Positions 1 through 46,270 of a DNA stretch of 64,000 bases are shown one piece after another. This DNA comes from a virus: positions 1-64,000 of IMG/VR virus record IMGVR_UViG_3300047564_004815; one strand, written 5' to 3'. The position numbers and the translations under genes were made by a program. The notes beneath the pieces were generated by a model. That model worked only from the letters and a program-made list of their open reading frames with translations, did no database searches and had not been told where the DNA came from. Positions within the stretch are counted from its first letter, which is position 1, and every line of letters begins with the position of its first letter.

Positions 1-316
1 CCCGACGCGCCCCGCCCGTGGGGCGATGGATCTCGACCCGGACTTGCCCGTCCGGGTAGACACACCATCGAGTCCGCCCGGTGCTTGTCTCGTGGTAAAC
101 TGCGTGGTCCTCATTAAAGTGGTCAAACCGGTATGCGGGACCCCATGTCCCGTGGCTCATGCCACAGGCCGCCATAGCGGCCGCCGCTATGGCGGCTTCC
201 GTTTTAAGTTGGAGCACCTGCTCCAGCGCTAGGCTTGTCGCCCACTCGTGCCCGAAGGCACGGGCCACTTTGTAGGCCGTCTCTAATTGTTTTTCTGTGA
301 ATCCTTGGAAACCCAT
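1..316 (-). CDS. Unknown protein, 5' part only (runs off left edge)
   Basis: Reading leftward from an ATG at 316, the frame stays open for 105 codons to the edge, so the stop lies outside the window. The start has a plausible ribosome site (AAAGGCGG about 8 bases upstream). The product begins MGFQGFTEKQLETAYKVARA, continues with an alanine-rich helix around residues 28-55, then a polar part rich in His, Asp and Arg. I do not recognise the family. It lies downstream, on the same strand, of the foldable noncoding segment at 340-611, which could be its leader. The real length is unknown. Confidence 0.72.
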   Translation of the reverse strand, partial: MGFQGFTEKQLETAYKVARAFGHEWATSLALEQVLQLKTEAAIAAAAMAACGMSHGTWGPAYRFDHFNEDHAVYHETSTGRTRWCVYPDGQVRVEIHRPTGGARR

Positions 317-413
317 GATTAACCGCCTTTTGCTCGCGACCGTTAGCCGTGCTGACGCCAGCACGTTTACACCCCGCACCACGTGTAGGTGGTCGCTTGC
401 GGGGCTAAGCAAG

Positions 414-433
414 TTAACGTCATGCTCAGGACG
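414..433. repeat. Imperfect direct repeat, copy 1
   Basis: TTAACGTCATGCTCAGGACG; 18 of 20 bases match the copy at 529-548. Both differences are transitions in the loop of a CGTC/GACG hairpin. This copy sits in the loop of the 406-412/436-442 stem. Confidence 0.7.
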
Positions 434-528
434 GGTTGCTTACTGGTCAGACTCACCACGTCTGACAGGAGTAGTCGATCAGTCAAGAGGTCATTGCGAC
501 TACTCTAAGCAATGACTTTGGAGCAGCT

Positions 529-548
529 TTAACGTCGTACTCAGGACG
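529..548. repeat. Imperfect direct repeat, copy 2
   Basis: TTAACGTCGTACTCAGGACG; second copy of the element at 414-433, starting 115 bases further on, with the same CGTC/GACG mini-hairpin. Two copies in one noncoding segment suggest a protein-binding or RNA-structural unit. Confidence 0.7.
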
Positions 549-615
549 CCCCTTTACAGCTCAACCCCTAAATAGCGAATCACCCTGCACGCAAACACGT
601 ACAGGGATCCTCAAC

Positions 616-623
616 TATATATA
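616..623 (-). promoter_or_regulatory. AT box, possible promoter -10 element
   Basis: TATATATA in otherwise GC-rich DNA. A transcript starting about 7 bases further on (near 609) would begin at the 583-606 hairpin. No clear -35 element. Immediately upstream on the minus strand is a small inverted repeat (TGGCCC 633-638 / GGGCCA 645-650) that could be an operator. Confidence 0.3.
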
Positions 624-727
624 CCGGAAATATGGCCCCATTATGGGCCACCCCCACGGGTAGGGGTGCGCGCCTACTCCCAGCGTGCTAATTGCAGCTA
701 TCGACGAAAGCAGCTTCGATTACGTGC

Positions 728-745
728 TACCCCACCTGTGGGGTA
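728..745 (-). terminator. Terminator-like hairpin after the 754-1455 gene
   Basis: Perfect 8-bp inverted repeat TACCCCAC / GTGGGGTA, 8 bases past the stop codon of the 754-1455 gene. It is GC-rich but has no T-run, so it may be a factor-dependent terminator or a processing site. Confidence 0.4.
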
Positions 746-753
746 CGGGGCCG

Positions 754-1455
754 TCAGCCGCGCCGCTGTGCCTGGTAGGCGGTCGGCACTAGGCTCCCAC
801 CCGGTGGGGTGGTGGCCGACGCGACCCGGCCGTGGGCCTCTACCGTAAACCGCGCCGGGTCTCTGTATAGCAGGCTCCGTGCGTGGTTCCAGTTTCGCCG
901 GTGCGAGTACACGATGTGGGTGATCCCACCCGTGGGGTCCTGCAGGGTTGCCACGGGCAGGTACCCACTGGTCTGGGCCGTGAGGTGGGGCTGCAGCCCG
1001 TCCGCGTTACCGATGACCCGCAGGTCTAATGCAGGGGCCGCGTCAACCGCGGGGGCGACCGGTGCGTCATCCGCTTGTTTCATCATCAGGTAGATTTGGT
1101 AGGGCCCCATGCTCGTTTGCCTCGCTATCTTCTCGACCGCAGTGGGCCGATTGAAACCGTAGTCTAATACCTTTTGCTTTTCCGACCCCATGATTGTCGG
1201 CTCTCCGTGCTTGACGTAAGGGCGCACGTACGCCGCGAACCTGATCATGTCGCCTGGCTTGAACGGCTTAAATTCTTGCGTGTGGGGAAGCCAGACGTGA
1301 TCCGTTACGTGCTCGTCCGTGTCTGTAGTGCGTACGTTCTCCAGCACCACGGTGCGTCCGTTCGAGCCGTAGCGCCCGATCCGTGCTTGGTACGTTAAAG
1401 GGGTTGCGTCGGGGTGCCGCTCTAGCGGCGCGCGTTGCGCTAAGAACTCGCGCAT
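754..1455 (-). CDS. Unknown protein with an OB-like N-terminal half
   Basis: 233 residues. Residues about 20-85 contain a pattern (VVLENVRTTDTDEHVTDHVW, then PGDMIRFAAYV) resembling a widespread phage/plasmid family predicted to adopt a beta-barrel (OB-like) fold, often linked with nucleic-acid binding. That link is from memory of the family and not proven here. The C-terminal half (about 115-233) carries an acidic, alanine-rich linker and a second beta-rich part. The start codon overlaps the stop of the upstream baseplate-J-like gene (TAATG), so translation is probably coupled. It is the last gene of the 3741-754 baseplate operon and so could be a structural or assembly protein. Confidence 0.85.
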   Translation of the reverse strand: MREFLAQRAPLERHPDATPLTYQARIGRYGSNGRTVVLENVRTTDTDEHVTDHVWLPHTQEFKPFKPGDMIRFAAYVRPYVKHGEPTIMGSEKQKVLDYGFNRPTAVEKIARQTSMGPYQIYLMMKQADDAPVAPAVDAAPALDLRVIGNADGLQPHLTAQTSGYLPVATLQDPTGGITHIVYSHRRNWNHARSLLYRDPARFTVEAHGRVASATTPPGGSLVPTAYQAQRRG

Positions 1456-2933
1456 TAGCTGATGCTCTCGATCGTGATCGCCTCGTTTATAAAACAGGCG
1501 ACACGGGGGCTAAACCCTTTAGTTAAATTCTCGGGGAACGACAGTACGTACGGGCTGCTGGTATTGAAGATCGTCCCGTCCCCGTACAGCACCTGCGCGA
1601 ACAAGTCGTAGTCTTGAATGACGTTGACGGCCCCGGCGGCGTGCACGGCGGCGGTAACTTGCGAGACTGCCACGTTCTCCTCGACCTGTAGGCCGTCCAG
1701 ATAGCTCTGAATGTTGGCGAGAGCTTGGTTTTTCTGGTCCGTCGACAGCCCTTCGGCATAGACTGTGCCAGCAAGCCAGACGGGGTGGAAGTAACGCACC
1801 AGCGTATTCGCGCAGATGACGCGGTTAATCGGGTCGTTGACGTAGTCGTCGATTCGCACCACGTCCGGGGCGTAAGAGATGTCTACCAGCAACGTTTCGT
1901 TCGTTACACCGGGGTCAACAAAAAGGTACGCCGGGTCTTTCGCCGAGAACCTCAAGCTCGGGGTGCTGCCTTGCAGGTCAAAGAACGGCGCGAGTTCAGG
2001 CTTCCCTTTTACTTTTACGCTGTGCACTTTCAAGACTGCGCGGTACGCTTCCAACGAAACCAGCGCCTCACCCGCCGCAACAAAAATTTCAACGGTGTCG
2101 CGCACAATCGGTGTTTTGACGTAGATGTCGGTGTGCCCGCCGATCGCCAGCGTTATCGTCCCTGCGACTGGGTCGTCTACTGTAATTTGATCGCGTTTCA
2201 TTTCCGGGTCTTGGTAGCCGGCCACCGCCAAACGCGAAATCGTACTAGGGAACTGCCCGTACAGCACTTTTTCAATCGACAGCCGGTTTACCAAGTTGGC
2301 CACAACCGGCGCGGTGCGAATACGCTCGGCGTACGCTGCGGCGGACTCCTGATCCCGGCCGCCGATCATTGGCGCCACAGAAATAATCTCAATCACGTTG
2401 GTGTTGCTGCTAAGTGCAGCAGACGTAAATAACGTGCCTACCGCCGCAACATACTGCGAACCCGGTTCAGCCGCGCGCAGTTGAACGCGCGTGTAAAAGT
2501 AGCCAAACGTCGGATCCTCTACTAATTGTTCCGGCGTTACTGACACATCAGCTTGCGGATAGTAGACCAGACCGTTCTGCTCGAACATATCGTTTGTAGT
2601 TAGCTGCACGCTCTGCCGCACCACGAACTTTATCGCCACGGTACCCGACGCCGCTTCCCCCGCACTACGCGTCACGAAAAAGCGGTCACCCACAGCAGCC
2701 AGCTCCGAATCCGTTAACTCGTCAGCGGCAAGCAGCGTCGTTTTACGAGCAGCAGTGTTAATCATGTCAATAATCTGCGCCACCACAGGCAACTGCGCCC
2801 GAACAAACAAGTCATACTGCGGGGTACCGGAGCGCAGGTCGAGCTCGTCACCGGTCGTCGACAGGTAGTTTGCTTTGATCGCCTCGACAAGAAACTGCTC
2901 TGCTTGCTGCAAAACAATATCGGTTACCGCCAT
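1455..2933 (-). CDS. Baseplate J-like wedge protein (T4 gp6 type)
   Basis: 492 residues, the usual size for this family. The N-terminus (GDELDLRSGTPQYDLFVRAQ) and the long middle region with 'GGRDQESAAAYAERIRTAP' (about residues 191-210) are characteristic of baseplate J/gp47-like proteins, where the segment 'GGxDxEsdeayReRI' is a hallmark. In contractile tails these proteins form the wedge ring that links the hub to the fibres. Translationally coupled with its neighbours by TAATG overlaps on both sides; the gp25-like gene lies directly upstream, the classic order in contractile-tail baseplate operons. Confidence 0.88.
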   Translation of the reverse strand: MAVTDIVLQQAEQFLVEAIKANYLSTTGDELDLRSGTPQYDLFVRAQLPVVAQIIDMINTAARKTTLLAADELTDSELAAVGDRFFVTRSAGEAASGTVAIKFVVRQSVQLTTNDMFEQNGLVYYPQADVSVTPEQLVEDPTFGYFYTRVQLRAAEPGSQYVAAVGTLFTSAALSSNTNVIEIISVAPMIGGRDQESAAAYAERIRTAPVVANLVNRLSIEKVLYGQFPSTISRLAVAGYQDPEMKRDQITVDDPVAGTITLAIGGHTDIYVKTPIVRDTVEIFVAAGEALVSLEAYRAVLKVHSVKVKGKPELAPFFDLQGSTPSLRFSAKDPAYLFVDPGVTNETLLVDISYAPDVVRIDDYVNDPINRVICANTLVRYFHPVWLAGTVYAEGLSTDQKNQALANIQSYLDGLQVEENVAVSQVTAAVHAAGAVNVIQDYDLFAQVLYGDGTIFNTSSPYVLSFPENLTKGFSPRVACFINEAITIESIS

Positions 2934-11648: not shown

Positions 11649-13645
11649 GTTGGCTCCAGCCGCAACACGACGACATGACCGGCGATTACTTCTCCGGCGG
11701 TTCACAGGGTTTGCTGCAGCAGACGTTGATGGGCCAGTCTCAGTTCTTTAACTTTGAAGGGTTCTTTCTCCCTTCGACAGTTAAGGAACTTTTCAAGTAC
11801 AGCGCGTACACGGTCCTGACTAGCTCGTCCGTAAATCCTGTTGTCGAGAAGATGGCGGAGTACCCTATCACGGACTTCGTTTTCCAGCCTTACGTGGATG
11901 AGGATTTAGACGAAAAGGACCAGCAAGCATTTCTGGACGCAAATAAAGCCCTCGTGGAGAAGTGGCAAGAGATAGCACGAGAACTACGCTTTAAAGAATT
12001 TGCGATGACCGCCGCCATGAACTACCAGACGTACGGTAATGCCTTTTCGGGCGTCTATCAGCCATTTGACCGGCACCTAGTGTGCAAGCTTTGTAAAAAC
12101 GAGGAACGCGCCAAAACTGCCAAATGGGACTGGGATAAAGGTTCGCTGCAGTTCATCCTGACGTGCAGCGCGTGCGGCAAGAAAAAGGCGGCCGACGTGC
12201 ACGATGTGATGGTGAGCGACTGGCGCCGCGTCAACCTTATTCCTTACTACCCTGGCCATTTTGACATCGACTACGACCCGTATTCGGGTGTCACGGAGTA
12301 CTATTACACTATCCAAGAAAACGAGCTCGACAAAATTAAAAAGGGCGACCGCCTGCGCCTTATCCACACGCCGATAGACGTGATCGACGCTGCGCGACTC
12401 GCGCGCGGAGGCCGCGCAAAGACGCCGCGGGTCAAGTTTTACAAGAACAACGTGTACCACCTGCCTCGTGCGTCGTTCAACCTGCCTGGCACAGAGACGC
12501 CTTGGGGCATCCCAAATACGATCGCCGCGTTACGCGACATGTTCTATTTGAACATGATGAAGCGCGCCCAGCTCGCGTTGCTGCTTGAGCATATCGTGCC
12601 CTTGCAAATCATATTCCCTGCTGTTGACGTCGGCGTAAACACGACGATTCCGATTAACTTGAACGACTGGCGCAAGACTTACCAGAAGGAGCTAATCAAG
12701 TGGAAGCGCGACCCGCTTTACAAGATCCTGTCGCCTATCCCACTGTCTAGCACGCAGCTGGGCGGCCAGGGCAAGGCCCTGATGCTTTATCCGGAGATGG
12801 AGCAAACCGAAAACTCGATTGTAAACGCCCTGAACGCGCCGATCGAGTTTATTCGCGGCGGCTTGACTTACACCGGGTCCAGCGTGAGCCTGCGCATGTT
12901 AGAGAATTCGCTACTCAACCAAGTAGCAGGGCTCACGCGCATGTTTCAGTGGATCGTTAACAACATCTCTAACATCAGCGGCTTGAAGCGCGTGAAGGTT
13001 AGCTTCAAGAAGTTCAAGATGGCGGACGACATCCAAGGTAAGCAGTTGTTGACGACGCTTTATCAGCTTGGGCTAGTGTCCGGCGAGACGTTGCTACGGT
13101 CGCATGACCTTGACTACGAGTACGAGACCAAGACGCGTACGGCGGAGAACCTTGAAAAGGCGCTCACGGACGCCAAGGCGCAGGCGCAAGCTGCCACTAA
13201 CTTGCAGGCGCTGCAGTCGATCCTAACTAACGCCCTTCCGCCGGAGACGACGATCGCCGCGCCGACCATCCCCGCCAACCAAGTCGAAATGCTGTTCGAG
13301 ACGTTCCAGCGGATGCAGCCCGCTCAGGCACAGAAAGCGCTGCAGACACTCAGCGAACAGAGCCCTGAAGCTGCCCGCGCGCTGCAGACGCGGCTCAGTA
13401 CTGACCCCGGCGCGGCAGCTAACCAAACAAAGCAGCTGATGACAATGGCGCCGGAGCAGCGCGACATGGCTTTGCAGGATCTCAGCCAGCAAAACCCGGT
13501 TATGGCGGCCATCGTCGAAAATATGATGGCGCAGTTTGGGCCGGCTACGGTCCAGCTGGGCCAGCAGCCGCAAGGTAACGGCAAGGTAGAGAAGGCGATG
13601 CCCGAGCAGCGCCCGCCCACCCGCGCAGGGGGAAGTCCGGTCTAA
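11645..13645 (+). CDS. Portal protein with inserted zinc-binding knuckle pair
   Basis: 666 residues. The order (N-terminal 'FKYSAYTVLTSSSVNPVVEK', a wing with 'MTAAMNYQTYGNAFSGVYQP', and the stem/crown region 'LNAPIEFIRGGLTYTGSSVS' at about 397-416) matches portals of large myophages, where the 'P.Ef..GG..y.gssvs' block is highly conserved. The dodecameric portal is the DNA gate and the terminase docking site. An unusual insertion carries C147-x2-C150 and C174-x2-C177, a probable zinc site in the wing. The C-terminal 120 residues are Gln/Ala/Pro-rich, low complexity. Last gene of the plus-strand run; converges with the fibre genes only 3 bases away. Confidence 0.85.
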   Translation: MSWLQPQHDDMTGDYFSGGSQGLLQQTLMGQSQFFNFEGFFLPSTVKELFKYSAYTVLTSSSVNPVVEKMAEYPITDFVFQPYVDEDLDEKDQQAFLDANKALVEKWQEIARELRFKEFAMTAAMNYQTYGNAFSGVYQPFDRHLVCKLCKNEERAKTAKWDWDKGSLQFILTCSACGKKKAADVHDVMVSDWRRVNLIPYYPGHFDIDYDPYSGVTEYYYTIQENELDKIKKGDRLRLIHTPIDVIDAARLARGGRAKTPRVKFYKNNVYHLPRASFNLPGTETPWGIPNTIAALRDMFYLNMMKRAQLALLLEHIVPLQIIFPAVDVGVNTTIPINLNDWRKTYQKELIKWKRDPLYKILSPIPLSSTQLGGQGKALMLYPEMEQTENSIVNALNAPIEFIRGGLTYTGSSVSLRMLENSLLNQVAGLTRMFQWIVNNISNISGLKRVKVSFKKFKMADDIQGKQLLTTLYQLGLVSGETLLRSHDLDYEYETKTRTAENLEKALTDAKAQAQAATNLQALQSILTNALPPETTIAAPTIPANQVEMLFETFQRMQPAQAQKALQTLSEQSPEAARALQTRLSTDPGAAANQTKQLMTMAPEQRDMALQDLSQQNPVMAAIVENMMAQFGPATVQLGQQPQGNGKVEKAMPEQRPPTRAGGSPV

Positions 13646-13648
13646 CGC

Positions 13649-34586: not shown

Positions 34587-34967
34587 TTACCAGCCGCGGT
34601 TCTTTGTGCTGATCCTTTTGGTGTCAACGATGGGCGCGTTGATGATCTCCGCGCGGTCTACGTCGTCTTCTGCGTACTTAGCGATGCCTTTTTGGCGCAT
34701 GTGCTTGTAAATAATCTGCGCCAGACTGTTATACACTTGGTGCACGCTCTCTGAATCGACTTCAAACACCATATCTTCGCGCGTGTTACCTTCCTCGTCA
34801 GCACGAAACACCACGACTACTTCGTTATCGGAGCAGACGAACTTTTCGATCGCTGTATAAGGAATCACTTCTCCGCGGAAGCGCAAACCATTGTGACCCA
34901 GTTCGGGCGGAAGGTCGTGGCCGACGATCGGCAACGCAAACGTAGAGAGATCCATTGGACTTGCCAT
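34587..34967 (-). CDS. Unknown protein divergent from the terminase
   Basis: 126 residues with an excellent ribosome site (AAGGAG/AAAGG). Residues about 15-95 alternate beta strands with one helix ('FRGEVIPYTAIEKFVCSDNE', 'VVVVFRADEEGN', then 'VHQVYNSLAQIIYKHM'), like a small PH-like or bacterial regulatory fold. No family recognised. First gene of the leftward head operon, divergent from the terminase across a gap of about 70 bases. Confidence 0.8.
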   Translation of the reverse strand: MASPMDLSTFALPIVGHDLPPELGHNGLRFRGEVIPYTAIEKFVCSDNEVVVVFRADEEGNTREDMVFEVDSESVHQVYNSLAQIIYKHMRQKGIAKYAEDDVDRAEIINAPIVDTKRISTKNRGW

Positions 34968-35036
34968 TTGACCTTTACTCCTTATAAAAGACGTGTTAGG
35001 ATGACCCTTGCCAGTATACGCAGCAGCGAGAAGCGA

Positions 35037-37886
35037 ATGTCAACTAGCGATGATGCTTCAAAGACGGTTGTTACGACAGACCGTATGCGGATTGCGGAAG
35101 GTAATTTTTACCTAAAAGGTAAACCTTTTTCGCTTAACCAGCACCCGCCGTTCCGCGCTATATACCAAATTCAAGCGCCGAAGCTGGTTATATGCAGTGG
35201 GAGACAAGTTGGGAAGACCGGAGTAGGCAGCGCGCTCGTTGGCTCTTGGAACGGCTTACCTAAACGGCTGGACCAGATGCAAATAGGCGACCGGGTGATT
35301 GCTATGTCCCCACGCCACGCTTTAGTTGAGGGCGTTGTAACTGGCACCGTAGCGTCCGGCGATAAGCTCTGCGTACGCATCACGACGCGTATGGGCCACG
35401 TATTGGACGTCGCGCTGACCCACCCGATTCGCAGACTGCGGGACTATTTGCCGGCCGGTAAAATTTCCGTCGGCGATCGCATAGCCGCAGTCCGCAAGGG
35501 CGGCAGCTTTACAGGTAGCAGTGAATTTACCGATGCAGACGTGAAGCTGCTGGGTTACGGCTTAGGCGATGGGCATTTCACAAGGAATACAATTAGTTTT
35601 GTAAATACCAAACCGTCCGTTCTGGCGGACTTTGAAAGCGCGGCCGAAGCATTAGGCGGCAGCTGTAAACGGTACCCGAAAAAGGGTACGCCTGCTACAG
35701 ACATACGTGTTCGCGTGACGCCTGCCATTACGCGGTTAATTGCGGACTGCGGCTTAGCGGAAACACGCTCAGCCACCAAATTCGTTCCTGACGCTGTTTT
35801 CGACTTGAGCCGCGAAAAGACAGCCCTTTTTATTAACCGGCTGTGGTCCTGCGACGGCACAGTCAAGCAAAACCGCCCTGGCCAGTACGACATAAGCTAC
35901 TGTTCTATTTCAGAGCGCCTTGTGCGCGGGCTTCAGGCGCTTCTCTGGAAATTTGGTGTACCGACCTCGTGCCGCACAAAAATTCCGCCTACCTACGAGG
36001 GCACTGATAAGAAAGCCTACATTTTGCGTGTCGAGACACAAGAGGGCGTGCGACGTTTCCTGACAGAGATCGGGGCGCTTGGAAAAAGCGAAAACGTACC
36101 GTTACCGGCAGTTAACAGCAACAATAATCGCGACACTGTCCCGCAAGAAGTTCAGCTGTTGCTCGACAACATTTTTACGCGCACCGACGCGAAGCGGCTC
36201 ACCGCAAACCGTGGCCACCACACCACAAAAGGCGTACGGCCTACCGATCAAGGTTTGCGCCGTAAGCTCAAGTACCCACCCACTCCTGATAAGCTACTCG
36301 CGTACGTAGCGTTTTTCACAGAGCTAGGTCTCACAGACGACCCGGACGTAGAGCTATTGCGCGACATCGCGACTGGCGACGTGGTTTGGGACGAGGTCGT
36401 CTCGGTCAAACCTATCGGCTCGCACCCTTGTTTCGACATTGAAGTTGCCGAATACCATAATTACGTGCTGAACGGCGTGGTTACTCATAACAGCACGTTG
36501 GCGAGCACTTTCACGGTCGCTGACGCAGTGGGTAACCCGTTTTGGGAGTCTTTAACCGTCCACCCATCCCTCGCGCAGTCGCGTCGATTCTCTAACATGC
36601 GTATTGCGCCCATTATTGACCAATCCCCCGCCATAAAAAAATACTTTTTCGACACCACGTGCAGGCACAACACGTCCGAGCGCAGCCTCAAGAACAACGC
36701 CGTGATGTATTTCGGCGCGATGAGCCAGATGGAGAACCTTCGTGGTTTGTCCGCCAACTCGGTAAACGAGGACGAGGTGCAGGACATGGTAGGCGAAGAA
36801 CTGGCGATCGTGGAAGAGGTCATGTCCGGTCAGCACTCCTCGAAGCGCTTTGTTGTACGGACAGGCACAGCAAAAACTGTCGGTAACATTCTGGAATCGA
36901 CATTCCGCGAATCTACGATGAACGAATGGATCGTGCCTTGTCCCTCCGGGCACTGGAATATCCCTTCCGTAGAGAACATTGGCCCGCACGGCTTCATCTG
37001 CAAAAAATGTAAAAGCCTCTGTGACGTACGCCAAGGGAAATGGCGCGCTATGCGGAAGGCAGAGGATGTTGCGTGGGTGGGCTTCCGTATTCCTCAGATA
37101 ATCTTGCCCACGCACACCGAAGACCCTGGTGCGTGGAAAGAAATAAACCACAAGCTGCACCACACTGACCCAGTGCAGTTCTCTAATGAAGTCATGGGGC
37201 ACGCTGCGGGCTCGGGTATCAGCATCCTGACTGAGGACCACTTAAAAGCCTGCTGCCAGCCGGAATACGATATGATCGAGGACTACATCCCCACAAACGA
37301 CCGCTACTACGCAGTATTTGCGACCATCGACTGGGGCCTCACCGCACGCAAGTCTTTCACTGTCGTAGGGGTGTGGGGCATCGCAGAGGACCACCGGATC
37401 AGACTGATTTACGCTAAGCGCTACCAAGAAACGGACGTGCTGAAACAAGTGGAAGACATCGGGCACATCTGTTTACGGTTTGCTGTGGATATGGTCTGCG
37501 CGGACTGGGGCGCGGGCATTACACAGAGCAGGTTGTTAGAGCAGCAGTTGAACCGCTCGGTGAACCGTATGATGTACGTCAGCGAGCAGCACGAGTTGAT
37601 TCGGTGGGACCCGCGCGGCGAGGTGTACAAGGTCAACCGCACGCAGGCCATGACTGAGACTTTCGTAAAGATGCGCATGGGGAATTTTCATTTCCCGCGC
37701 TGGCCGGAATTTCAGAAGTTTGCAAAAGACATTCTTGTCGTATACGAGGAGCCACTGGACGACAGAAACTCGAACGATAAAATAAAATACGACCATCCGG
37801 AGGATAAGCCTGACGACTTCACGCACGTGTGCGTCGGCGCTGTTCTAGCTGTGCACCTACTCACAGGGCAAGTCCGCAGCCGCTAG
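35037..37886 (+). CDS. Terminase large subunit, interrupted by an intein
   Basis: 949 residues as translated, about 525 after splicing. Start at 35037 is preferred over 35001 (AGG too close) and over the 34893 frame extension, which would overlap the divergent gene. N-terminal ATPase: Walker A 'GRQVGKT' at 55-61, split from its continuation 'STLASTF' at 486 by the intein. A Cys/His knuckle lies at C635, C655, C658, C662. Nuclease (RNase H-like) domain: 'ATIDWGLTARKSF' (D765) and 'VCADWGAG' (D823), with 'DDFTHVCVGA' near the end. It drives DNA into the prohead through the portal and cuts the concatemer. Without splicing the P-loop is broken, so packaging would depend on splicing. Confidence 0.9.
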   Translation: MSTSDDASKTVVTTDRMRIAEGNFYLKGKPFSLNQHPPFRAIYQIQAPKLVICSGRQVGKTGVGSALVGSWNGLPKRLDQMQIGDRVIAMSPRHALVEGVVTGTVASGDKLCVRITTRMGHVLDVALTHPIRRLRDYLPAGKISVGDRIAAVRKGGSFTGSSEFTDADVKLLGYGLGDGHFTRNTISFVNTKPSVLADFESAAEALGGSCKRYPKKGTPATDIRVRVTPAITRLIADCGLAETRSATKFVPDAVFDLSREKTALFINRLWSCDGTVKQNRPGQYDISYCSISERLVRGLQALLWKFGVPTSCRTKIPPTYEGTDKKAYILRVETQEGVRRFLTEIGALGKSENVPLPAVNSNNNRDTVPQEVQLLLDNIFTRTDAKRLTANRGHHTTKGVRPTDQGLRRKLKYPPTPDKLLAYVAFFTELGLTDDPDVELLRDIATGDVVWDEVVSVKPIGSHPCFDIEVAEYHNYVLNGVVTHNSTLASTFTVADAVGNPFWESLTVHPSLAQSRRFSNMRIAPIIDQSPAIKKYFFDTTCRHNTSERSLKNNAVMYFGAMSQMENLRGLSANSVNEDEVQDMVGEELAIVEEVMSGQHSSKRFVVRTGTAKTVGNILESTFRESTMNEWIVPCPSGHWNIPSVENIGPHGFICKKCKSLCDVRQGKWRAMRKAEDVAWVGFRIPQIILPTHTEDPGAWKEINHKLHHTDPVQFSNEVMGHAAGSGISILTEDHLKACCQPEYDMIEDYIPTNDRYYAVFATIDWGLTARKSFTVVGVWGIAEDHRIRLIYAKRYQETDVLKQVEDIGHICLRFAVDMVCADWGAGITQSRLLEQQLNRSVNRMMYVSEQHELIRWDPRGEVYKVNRTQAMTETFVKMRMGNFHFPRWPEFQKFAKDILVVYEEPLDDRNSNDKIKYDHPEDKPDDFTHVCVGAVLAVHLLTGQVRSR
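35220..36491 (+). other. Intein with LAGLIDADG homing endonuclease in the terminase
   Basis: About 421-424 residues. C-terminal splice site is clear: '...CFDIEVAEYHNYVLNGVVTHN' followed by Ser (positions 36489-36494), the canonical His-Asn-Ser end. Block A is recognisable as 'ALVGSWNGLPKRLDQMQIGD' and block B as 'VLDVALTHPIRRL'. The first residue is uncertain: no Cys is present; the Ser at 35229 or a residue just after Walker A Thr (35220) are the candidates. Two LAGLIDADG motifs: 'LLGYGLGDGHF' (about 171-181) and 'FINRLWSCDGTV' (about 265-276). The insertion lies in the ATPase P-loop, a favoured site for inteins. Confidence 0.85.
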
Positions 37887-43678: not shown

Positions 43679-44420
43679 CGTCTGCCCCTGGTACATTTAT
43701 GCGCTGAATGATTCGTGCAGCGTTGGCGCGGATCAAGAGCAGAATCTTTTTAATGACCAAAGGGTCTTGCCGTACGCGGAAGGCAGGGATCGTCAACACC
43801 TGTAAATTCAACGTGCACTCGAACAGGTCGTCATACTCCTCAGTTAGTACCGGGCCGTTCAAATCAGGGTACCCTACGTACTGAAGGTTAAAAGCTTGCT
43901 GTATGTCTAGGCGGCTAGCGATGAGCGCGCCGCGTATGCGCTGAGCCAGCAGGGTCGCGCGTAACGAATCGCGGTCAAGCACCTGAATTTGGTAGATCAA
44001 GGTTTCGCGCACGGCCCGTCGGTCGTCTTGCGGGGCGTCTGCACCCGCCATCTTGACGGCGTCTCGCATCGCATGGGTCTCTGCCTGCGCGCGCCCAAAC
44101 TTTACGACGATTAAAGGCCGCTTATCCCGAGCGGCCATTTCGTTGCGCCGAAGGTCTTTTGCAATCAGCACCGCGGAGCGCTCCGGATCCTCGGGGAAAT
44201 AAATAAAATCGTCATCAGTCATGAACCGGTGCTCGATCACGCTGAGGATGCCACTCTGCACGAGAAGCGGCAGAAACTCGTAATTGGTTGAGGCGATTGC
44301 GCTCAGGTGCGACATCAAGGTCGCAACGGACGCCTGCGCAAACTCGTTAGGGTCGTTGTTTATTGCAAGCGGGTCGTTGCCGTTAGGGTCGGGGTAACCT
44401 GCGAATGGCTCGATCGACAT
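43671..44420 (-). CDS. Possible tail-terminator/neck protein
   Basis: 249 residues. 'RPLIVVKFGRAQAETHAMRD', 'LIYQIQVLDRDSLRATLLAQ' and 'EEYDDLFECTLNLQVLT' form an alternating strand-helix pattern like gpU/gp15-type tail-terminator or minor neck proteins that cap the tube; this resemblance is weak and positional support is limited. Start overlaps the RNAP C-half stop (TAATG). Confidence 0.62.
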   Translation of the reverse strand: MSIEPFAGYPDPNGNDPLAINNDPNEFAQASVATLMSHLSAIASTNYEFLPLLVQSGILSVIEHRFMTDDDFIYFPEDPERSAVLIAKDLRRNEMAARDKRPLIVVKFGRAQAETHAMRDAVKMAGADAPQDDRRAVRETLIYQIQVLDRDSLRATLLAQRIRGALIASRLDIQQAFNLQYVGYPDLNGPVLTEEYDDLFECTLNLQVLTIPAFRVRQDPLVIKKILLLIRANAARIIQRINVPGADDA

Positions 44421-46270
44421 TAGTACTTACCATCTTTCCCTTGCCCGAAATACTGACCGTGCACGTAAGCGGGCACGGGATTAAACGTATCCCGAATCTG
44501 CGTGCGCGCCCCCGTCGCGGCGTTTTGGCGGAAGGTCTGGTTGACGAATCGGAACGCTAGGTTAGCCATCCAGTCGTCCTTATGGAGGGCGGCGCGCTCG
44601 GTTCCGAGCATAATCGGTTTAACTATTAAACTGTTCTGCTTGAACACTGGAACGTGCGAGATGTTCTGGTCCTTCAACTGCTTAACTGTTGCGGGGGTCA
44701 AAACCGTATACGGCGAAGCAGTACCGGTTTCGTGTGCAAGGATTCGGCCTTCAGCTTTCCCTAACTCCACCGTGTCATGAGCGGTGGGTAAATGCTGCTG
44801 GATGCTATTCCAGTGCACAACTTCCCCAGGCACGTAGTCGTGCGTTCCCGGGTGAATAACTTGGCCCAAGTTCAAGATACCGCGCGTCACAACTTCGGTA
44901 ACACGTGAATTGCTACGGATACCCGCATCGGCATATATCTGCCGAAGCCTTGACGCGAAAAATTCGCGGCCCGCTTCCATGCCTTTGTGCTCAACCACGT
45001 CTACAGGGTTTATCTCGCCGTGAGATAAGGGGTCACCCTTCGCAACCCGCTGCCCAGGCTTGACTGTAACATCCAAGCCCGGTGCGACATAGTGCTTAAT
45101 GTTTTTCACTGTCACGTTGAGCCCACCTGCCGCAGCTGGCTCGACGTGCGTAACCTCGCCCGACACGTGCGCGAGCGTCGCTGCACCTGCAAACATCTTC
45201 GGCGCGTGCATAAATTGAAGGATGGTCTGGAGCGGAGATTTGCTTGCGCCCACGACGCCACCAGCGTGCTTTTGGTTCAAGGCGAGCTGGGTCAAAGGCG
45301 CGGTCAAGCCTTGCGCGGCCTTCAAGCCGACGTGCTCACCCACTGGCGGCAGCCGCCCTTCTTCGTTCAGACCGGTGCATACTGCGCACACGCCTTTTGG
45401 CGCGGTGCAGAACAACGGACTGCGTATCTTTACGACGGTGCGCTGCTTCGCCAACCGCTCCCGCATCACGTTGGTGATAATGTCATTCCGGTGCCCGACG
45501 CCCGGTACGTCCTCAGCCAACGCCCGACCAATCAAGTCCGGGCTGTTCGCGGGCAGCTCGCGGCCGTGCGTAGTCTTACAGTCGTGGTCGGTTACCACCA
45601 TATCCATGTGAATGGTGTTCAACTCTTTAGCGAACGCGCCCGGATCACGTACAGCGGTGTAGGTGTTGACCAAGCCGCGTCTAGCGCCTTGCGCGTGCAC
45701 ATAGAAGTCGATAGGGCTCATTCCCTCACTGAAGCTTCGTTGCGCGATTACCGGCAGCAGGTGATTGCTAGTATCGAGGTTTAGTCCCACCATCCCCAGC
45801 ATCTGCCTGCCCATCGACGTGTCACCGCGTGCACCGGACTTGATCCAGCTAGTCAAATTATTCGGCCGGCTCTCGATCGCTGCTTTGATGCCGTTGTTTA
45901 CGTGCTCTTCCACTTTTGCAAACAGCTCTAACTTTTTCTGCTGGAACGGTAAGCTGCGGTTCAATTCTGGATTAAGCGCAGCCTCGTGGCGCAGACGCAG
46001 CAGCTGCGGCATGTGCGACTTAAACGCGGCGTCGCGAAGGTCTGTATGAGGTTTCAGGTCGTTGATGCTGAAGCTCGAGCCCGACTCCAACGCGATCTGG
46101 TTACCGACGTCACGAAGATTTTGCACAACTGTCCCGTACTGCTTCGGGTGATGCTCGGCGATTGTTTGCAAAAGCTTACTTGTACCACCCTTATCCAACG
46201 GCCCCTGCAACGCAACGTCCGGCGGTAGCGCGCCTTGAATAAGAAGCTGCCCAATGGTAGTGGTCGACAT
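44420..46270 (-). CDS. RNA polymerase beta-prime, C-terminal half
   Basis: 616 residues of clear bacterial-type beta-prime. Residues 1-75: 'TIGQLLIQGALPPD' and 'YGTVVQNLRDVGNQIALESG' (region before the bridge helix). Bridge helix at 145-166 ('SGARGDTSMGRQMLGMVGLN'). Trigger loop at 180-222 ('IDFYVHAQGARRGLVNTYTA'). Zinc site 2: C231, C288, C295, C298, with the same 7- and 3-residue spacings as in E. coli. Then 'GLKAAQGLTAPLTQLALNQ' (309-335, as 'GviAAQSIGEPgTQLT'). The first half of beta-prime is missing here and found fused to beta at 51393-55682. Would supply the nucleotide-addition moving parts of a phage polymerase. Confidence 0.9.
   Translation of the reverse strand: MSTTTIGQLLIQGALPPDVALQGPLDKGGTSKLLQTIAEHHPKQYGTVVQNLRDVGNQIALESGSSFSINDLKPHTDLRDAAFKSHMPQLLRLRHEAALNPELNRSLPFQQKKLELFAKVEEHVNNGIKAAIESRPNNLTSWIKSGARGDTSMGRQMLGMVGLNLDTSNHLLPVIAQRSFSEGMSPIDFYVHAQGARRGLVNTYTAVRDPGAFAKELNTIHMDMVVTDHDCKTTHGRELPANSPDLIGRALAEDVPGVGHRNDIITNVMRERLAKQRTVVKIRSPLFCTAPKGVCAVCTGLNEEGRLPPVGEHVGLKAAQGLTAPLTQLALNQKHAGGVVGASKSPLQTILQFMHAPKMFAGAATLAHVSGEVTHVEPAAAGGLNVTVKNIKHYVAPGLDVTVKPGQRVAKGDPLSHGEINPVDVVEHKGMEAGREFFASRLRQIYADAGIRSNSRVTEVVTRGILNLGQVIHPGTHDYVPGEVVHWNSIQQHLPTAHDTVELGKAEGRILAHETGTASPYTVLTPATVKQLKDQNISHVPVFKQNSLIVKPIMLGTERAALHKDDWMANLAFRFVNQTFRQNAATGARTQIRDTFNPVPAYVHGQYFGQGKDGKY

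Follow-up and report, generated by a model that had tools for sequence, protein, structure and literature searches.

In the window analysed here, a 64-kb stretch of a 75-kb virus record, positions 317-753 form a non-coding gap between two minus-strand ORFs, neither with a family match: an upstream gene (754..1455), whose stop lies at 754 and whose next upstream neighbour is a baseplate J-like gene (1455-2933), and a downstream gene (2..316), which starts at 316 and has an AAAAGG ribosome-binding site (331-326, minus strand) ending 9 nt before the start codon. Elsewhere in the window, a fragment resembling the RNA polymerase beta' subunit (44420-46270, minus strand; Rpb1 domains 4 and 5) has Vibrio phage D181 and Salmonella phage Arash as its nearest named relatives, at about 27% identity, and a terminase large subunit gene (34893-37886, plus strand) is split by an intein with a LAGLIDADG domain. 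No DNA relatives of window positions 1-2000 were found among phages, and for the proteins of the flanking genes IMG/VR yielded no relatives, so that the gap cannot be aligned to kin.

The initial annotation had singled out this gap for its abundance of inverted repeats, beyond what chance would give, and both points were borne out: 16 pairs of at least 7 bp lie within 280-800, and the gap holds 15 perfect 7-mer stems against 6.0 +/- 3.1 in dinucleotide shuffles, a fraction of 0.008 of which reached that count or a higher one. Folding is likewise strong on the plus strand (-164.5 kcal/mol, z -4.46) and on the minus strand (-180.7 kcal/mol, z -4.54), with 0 of 100 shuffles as good in either case. 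Among the repeats are a 7-bp hairpin (GUCAGAC/GUCUGAC, 446..466, minus strand) between the two conserved pseudoknots described below, and an imperfect long inverted repeat (652-672/723-743, minus strand; overall 652..743), which follows the upstream gene and appears both in the inverted-repeat list and in the folding. The feature that proved key, a 20-nt direct repeat (414-433/529-548), had been overlooked.

A hairpin containing a second stem had been noted at 372-404, and these two helices correspond, on the minus strand, to P1 and P3 of an HDV-like ribozyme (336..405) that fills the leader of the downstream gene. It consists of P1 405-399/377-371, with G.U at the cut, P2 396-391/341-336, P3 390-388/380-378, and P4 365-359/354-348, and has the HDV-like layout of a P1-P2-P3-P4 double pseudoknot with a 7-bp P1 and a catalytic C in J4/2, for which C346 is the candidate. 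Its match to Rfam RF02682 (24.9 bits, E 0.037) does not reach the gathering score of 44, and the element is therefore classed as HDV-like, outside RF02682. A loose HDV descriptor matched falsely at many sites downstream of pseudoknots; the strict one used in its place matches only once in the window, both strands considered, at 405 minus. The predicted cut lies between 406 and 405, and the ribozyme is presumably active, with an RNA 3' end forming at this point in vivo.

The suggestion of a structured RNA or complex leader was right, the leader itself being the HDV-like ribozyme, but a single large ornate RNA is not what the gap contains. Despite the strong fold across the entire gap, the idea that all of it forms a single large, structured noncoding RNA akin to GOLLD or ROOL is scarcely tenable: an Rfam search that included both families gave no match at gathering score across the gap, which is also short for these families, and what lies inside it can be separated into modules that are known or recur.

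Two interleaved stems had further been taken to form an H-type pseudoknot with zero bases between their inner strands. The stems are present and longer than first described (469-477/497-505, 9 bp, and 490-497/509-516, 8 bp), with the zero spacing as claimed, and their compact H-type order, read 5' to 3', is found on the minus strand only (470..516; S1 516-509/497-490, S2 505-498/477-470). This layout occurred in 0 of 1000 shuffles and in 0 of 144 other windows of the same genome; the pseudoknot is real beyond chance, stands without relatives for covariation, and might, speculatively, be an unrecognised cutter. An H-type pseudoknot is present in the gap, but the best-supported ones are two others, at 548-521 and 433-407.

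A recurrent phage pseudoknot

On the minus strand, the direct repeat 414-433/529-548 is the 5' part of a compact H-type pseudoknot that is present twice and is identified by this repeat, by a descriptor of both stems, and by covariation in the family. Copy 2 (521..548) has S1 548-545/536-533, S2 542-538/525-521, and loop 3 UUAAAGC 532-526, and the pseudoknot at 470..516 begins 4 nt past its end; copy 1 (407..433) has S1 433-430/421-418, S2 427-423/411-407, and loop 3 UUAACU 417-412, and is followed by one A (406) and then by the predicted cut. The family consensus, 27-28 nt long, is NNNC-CU-RRRYA-N-GNNN-UUAAAC-UGYYY, in which the UUAAAC loop likely forms triples in the S1 groove. On the window genome the both-stem descriptor finds exactly these two copies, both within this gap.

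A family with both stems is established by its recurrence and by covariation. Among the matches listed, which make the counts of the IMG/VR pseudoknot scans lower bounds, the 20-nt direct repeat was found in more than 119 stretches, against a rough chance estimate of about 2, and the both-stem descriptor gave 421 copies in 3.4 Mb of fetched loci versus 1 in reversed sequence. When the search pattern left S1 unspecified (109 distinct sequences), S1 was fully paired in 76, compared with 13.4 expected, by 37 different fully paired stems; when it left S2 unspecified (128 sequences), S2 was fully paired in 99, compared with 48.8 expected, the variants including GAGCA/UGCUC, GGACA/UGUCC, GGGCA/UGCCC, GGUCA/UGACC, AAACA/UGUUU, and CAGCA/UGCUG. 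A 44-sequence alignment, misfits included, contains 77 cells changed on both sides versus 17 in shuffles, and every shifted stem register in it fails; because these 44 were hand-picked for diversity, the counts from the 109 and 128 sequences with an unconstrained stem are the less biased. By these counts the covariation of both stems is strong, each stem having been assessed in sequences collected with that stem unconstrained, and this applies to the family and not to this genome, because the pseudoknots of the window are without close kin. None of the 4227 families of Rfam 15 matches at the pseudoknot positions, and no description of the motif was found in the open-access literature, although it may have been published elsewhere.

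Named phages carrying the pseudoknot include crAss-like cr7_1 and phages of Staphylococcus, Lactobacillus, Synechococcus, Nostoc, Paracoccus, Roseobacter, Rhizobium, and Moorella; loop 3 or a stem is altered in several of these and in Labelle (Mycobacterium), Molivia (Arthrobacter), and Vibrio D456. Carriers of the motif include Lactobacillus phage phig1e, Roseophage SIO1, and Synechococcus phage S-EIVl. Scanning of 257 Gb of bacterial and archaeal genomes yielded 49 stretches with the pseudoknot, probably for the most part prophage. Some contigs have 4-7 copies, all on the same strand.

Downstream neighbours and gene context

An HDV-like ribozyme stands 1 nt after the pseudoknot both in the window and in a second locus (L030). 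Type III hammerheads follow it in L227 (50.5 bits) and, by a combined pattern, in 9 contigs, several of them near-duplicates; a second hammerhead in L277 and one in L278 have no upstream knot. A pistol ribozyme (54.4 bits) directly follows the pseudoknot in L058; about 1.1 kb separates it from a type-P5 twister (12411-13646, minus strand), and only the pistol clearly follows a pseudoknot. Of 23 pattern-selected stretches, several of which are near-duplicates, 21 gave a tRNA call; tRNAs of nine isotypes begin 3-26 nt, mostly 4-7 nt, past the pseudoknot, and annotated tRNAs lie close after it in Nostoc phage NMeng1 and Arthrobacter phage Molivia. At loci outside the tRNA-scan fetch, a tRNA is present in 5 of about 240, versus 8 of 2423 control windows. 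The tRNA and hammerhead scans were targeted, and since pattern scans choose what they find, the share of copies with each type of neighbour is uncertain.

Other structured RNAs were seen at individual loci. In L264 (4380-4482), the pseudoknot is followed by a U-tract and then directly by a GP20-b RNA (RF03003) that sits in the next gene's leader; L137 combines a dense array of phage tRNAs and a manA RNA with one pseudoknot just before a tRNA-Gly; and a DUF805b RNA (RF02914) lies just after the apparent 3' end of a tRNA in L239 (5149-5185, minus strand). Structured sequences with no Rfam match, candidates for unrecognised cutters, follow the pseudoknot in crAss-like cr7_1 (L395, 1530-1620) and in Microcystis phage Mwe-JY13 (L287, 1530-1650).

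U-tracts occur after the pseudoknot in 57 of 380 cases, versus 12.5 expected, mostly 0-2 nt past S2, as they might if the pseudoknot were part of a transcription terminator or pause signal. This explanation is nevertheless improbable, in that about 85% of the copies have no U-tract, ribozymes and tRNAs come next in many other copies, and the pseudoknot is depleted at convergent junctions (7.7%, versus 13.6% for other gene ends). Neither copy in the window is followed by a U-tract. The junctions at which the pseudoknot occurs are mostly co-directional, and the depletion at convergent ones also makes a plain operon-end element unlikely.

According to simple, ORF-based gene calls, the pseudoknot starts exactly 5 nt past the upstream stop codon in 89, and 6 nt past it in 32, of the 326 copies with an upstream gene, and this anchoring holds with the next start codon near or far. 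The upstream genes are mixed, encoding DNA polymerase, portal, minor head protein, RNR, and thymidylate synthase, and scaffolding proteins are frequent among the downstream ones; because the flanking genes are so mixed, a general mRNA role is favoured and a single-pathway riboswitch is unlikely. A/C-rich leaders, about 20-36 nt long and with no obvious Shine-Dalgarno sequence, are frequent in genes downstream of the pseudoknot (L022, L007, and L286). TAA triplets do lie 5-6 nt before the copies in the window, but probably by coincidence, since the open frames leading up to them are only 12 and 18 codons long.

In 139 copies the next start codon lies 20-29 nt after the pseudoknot, also when the stop codon is far away. 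This spacing, the frequent scaffolding genes downstream, and the precedent of the T4 gene 32 pseudoknot, including the UUAA(A) repeats 3' of the knot (PMC3014915), would suit a role as translational operator, or as initiation element, for the downstream gene. We consider such a role unlikely, if less so than that of a terminator, since cutting by the HDV-like ribozymes and hammerheads would part the pseudoknot from the downstream gene, the stop-codon anchoring persists with a distant next start, and tRNAs or U-tracts often come next instead. A recoding stimulator, acting in stop-codon readthrough or frameshifting, could also be imagined from the spacing peak at 5 nt, from the zero frame being open through the motif, and from the resemblance of this spacing and of the small loops to what is generally known of luteoviral frameshift pseudoknots; it is very improbable, given that zero-frame extensions of at least 40 codons are found in 35 of 180 versus 17.7% in controls, and that no XXXYYY slippery site is present in the 7 nt before the stop.

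Possible role and known systems

Referring to these neighbours and positions, we judge it moderately probable that the gap is an RNA-processing module in which the pseudoknot family serves as a 3'-end cap against 3'-to-5' exonucleases. That the 27-nt pseudoknot is, phage-wide, a general mRNA 3'-end cap, with cutting just after it by ribozymes and at some tRNAs, is put forward more tentatively, as a possibility falling somewhat short of probable. In the window, a minus-strand phage transcript would contain the pseudoknot (two copies), 1 nt, and then the HDV-like ribozyme in the next leader; after self-cleavage between 406 and 405, the upstream RNA would have the pseudoknot and a single A at its 3' end, and the downstream mRNA would open with the folded ribozyme, followed by the AAAAGG ribosome-binding site. 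At other copies the end might be made by a ribozyme, by RNase P at a tRNA, by a terminator, or by another nuclease. What HDV, hammerhead, and RNase P processing and termination have in common is that each generates a new 3' end a short way past the pseudoknot; upon HDV and hammerhead cutting, the pseudoknot would stay on the upstream RNA. Its compact fold might then halt 3'-to-5' exonucleases, at a site where a terminating ribosome should not melt it. We infer this exonuclease resistance from the observed positions and neighbours only.

Several observations count against a cap. Most copies, copy 2 of the window among them, are without a recognised cutter, convergent junctions are depleted, the HDV match in the window is sub-threshold, the tight distance to the start codon is what a downstream role would predict, and no gene ends just before copy 1 or copy 2 in the window. 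In addition, the cut of a pistol ribozyme is expected close to its own 3' end, so that most of the ribozyme would remain on the upstream RNA.

What self-cleaving ribozymes do in phages is largely an open question, and most minimal HDV-like ones are poorly understood (PMC10879173). If true, the 3'-end cap would account for the retention of such ribozymes between the genes of dsDNA phages: a knot located just upstream of HDV-like, hammerhead, and pistol ribozymes and of tRNAs would give them the concrete role of producing mRNA 3' ends that are already capped. The spread of the family over many hosts means that existing RNA-seq data could test this role, and the pseudoknot, if a cap, would be a very small natural RNA-stabilising part.

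The phage pseudoknot is worth comparing with several known systems. Luteoviral frameshift pseudoknots have a short loop 1, a 1-nt junction, and an A-rich loop 3, all of which the phage family shares, whereas the latter follows a stop codon, with no slippery site or extended frame found. In the P1-pseudoknot unit of the pistol ribozyme (RF02679), a hairpin loop pairs downstream and UUAAA comes after the hairpin, again as in the phage family; however, the phage knot is without the catalytic half, and the pistol itself follows the knot in L058. In T7, RNase III leaves hairpins at mRNA 3' ends, and these, like the phage pseudoknot, are intercistronic and proposed to shield the 3' end of the upstream mRNA once it has been cut, but the phage family consists of a conserved pseudoknot whose cutters are many and varied. 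The leader pseudoknot of T4 gene 32, located 67 nt before the start codon and bound by gp32 (PMC3014915), is likewise a phage H-type pseudoknot near a UUAAA sequence, whereas the present family is found in many phages, where it follows the stop codons of numerous unrelated genes. Finally, compared with RF02682 (HDV-F-prausnitzii) and the theta ribozymes of gut phages (PMC10879173), the ribozyme of the window scores below the Rfam gathering threshold and is preceded by a pseudoknot and not by a tRNA, but it shares with them the nested double-pseudoknot layout, the G.U at the cut, C-U-A-A in J4/2, the phage context, and a cut that is predicted to fall at the 3' end of an RNA structure lying upstream.
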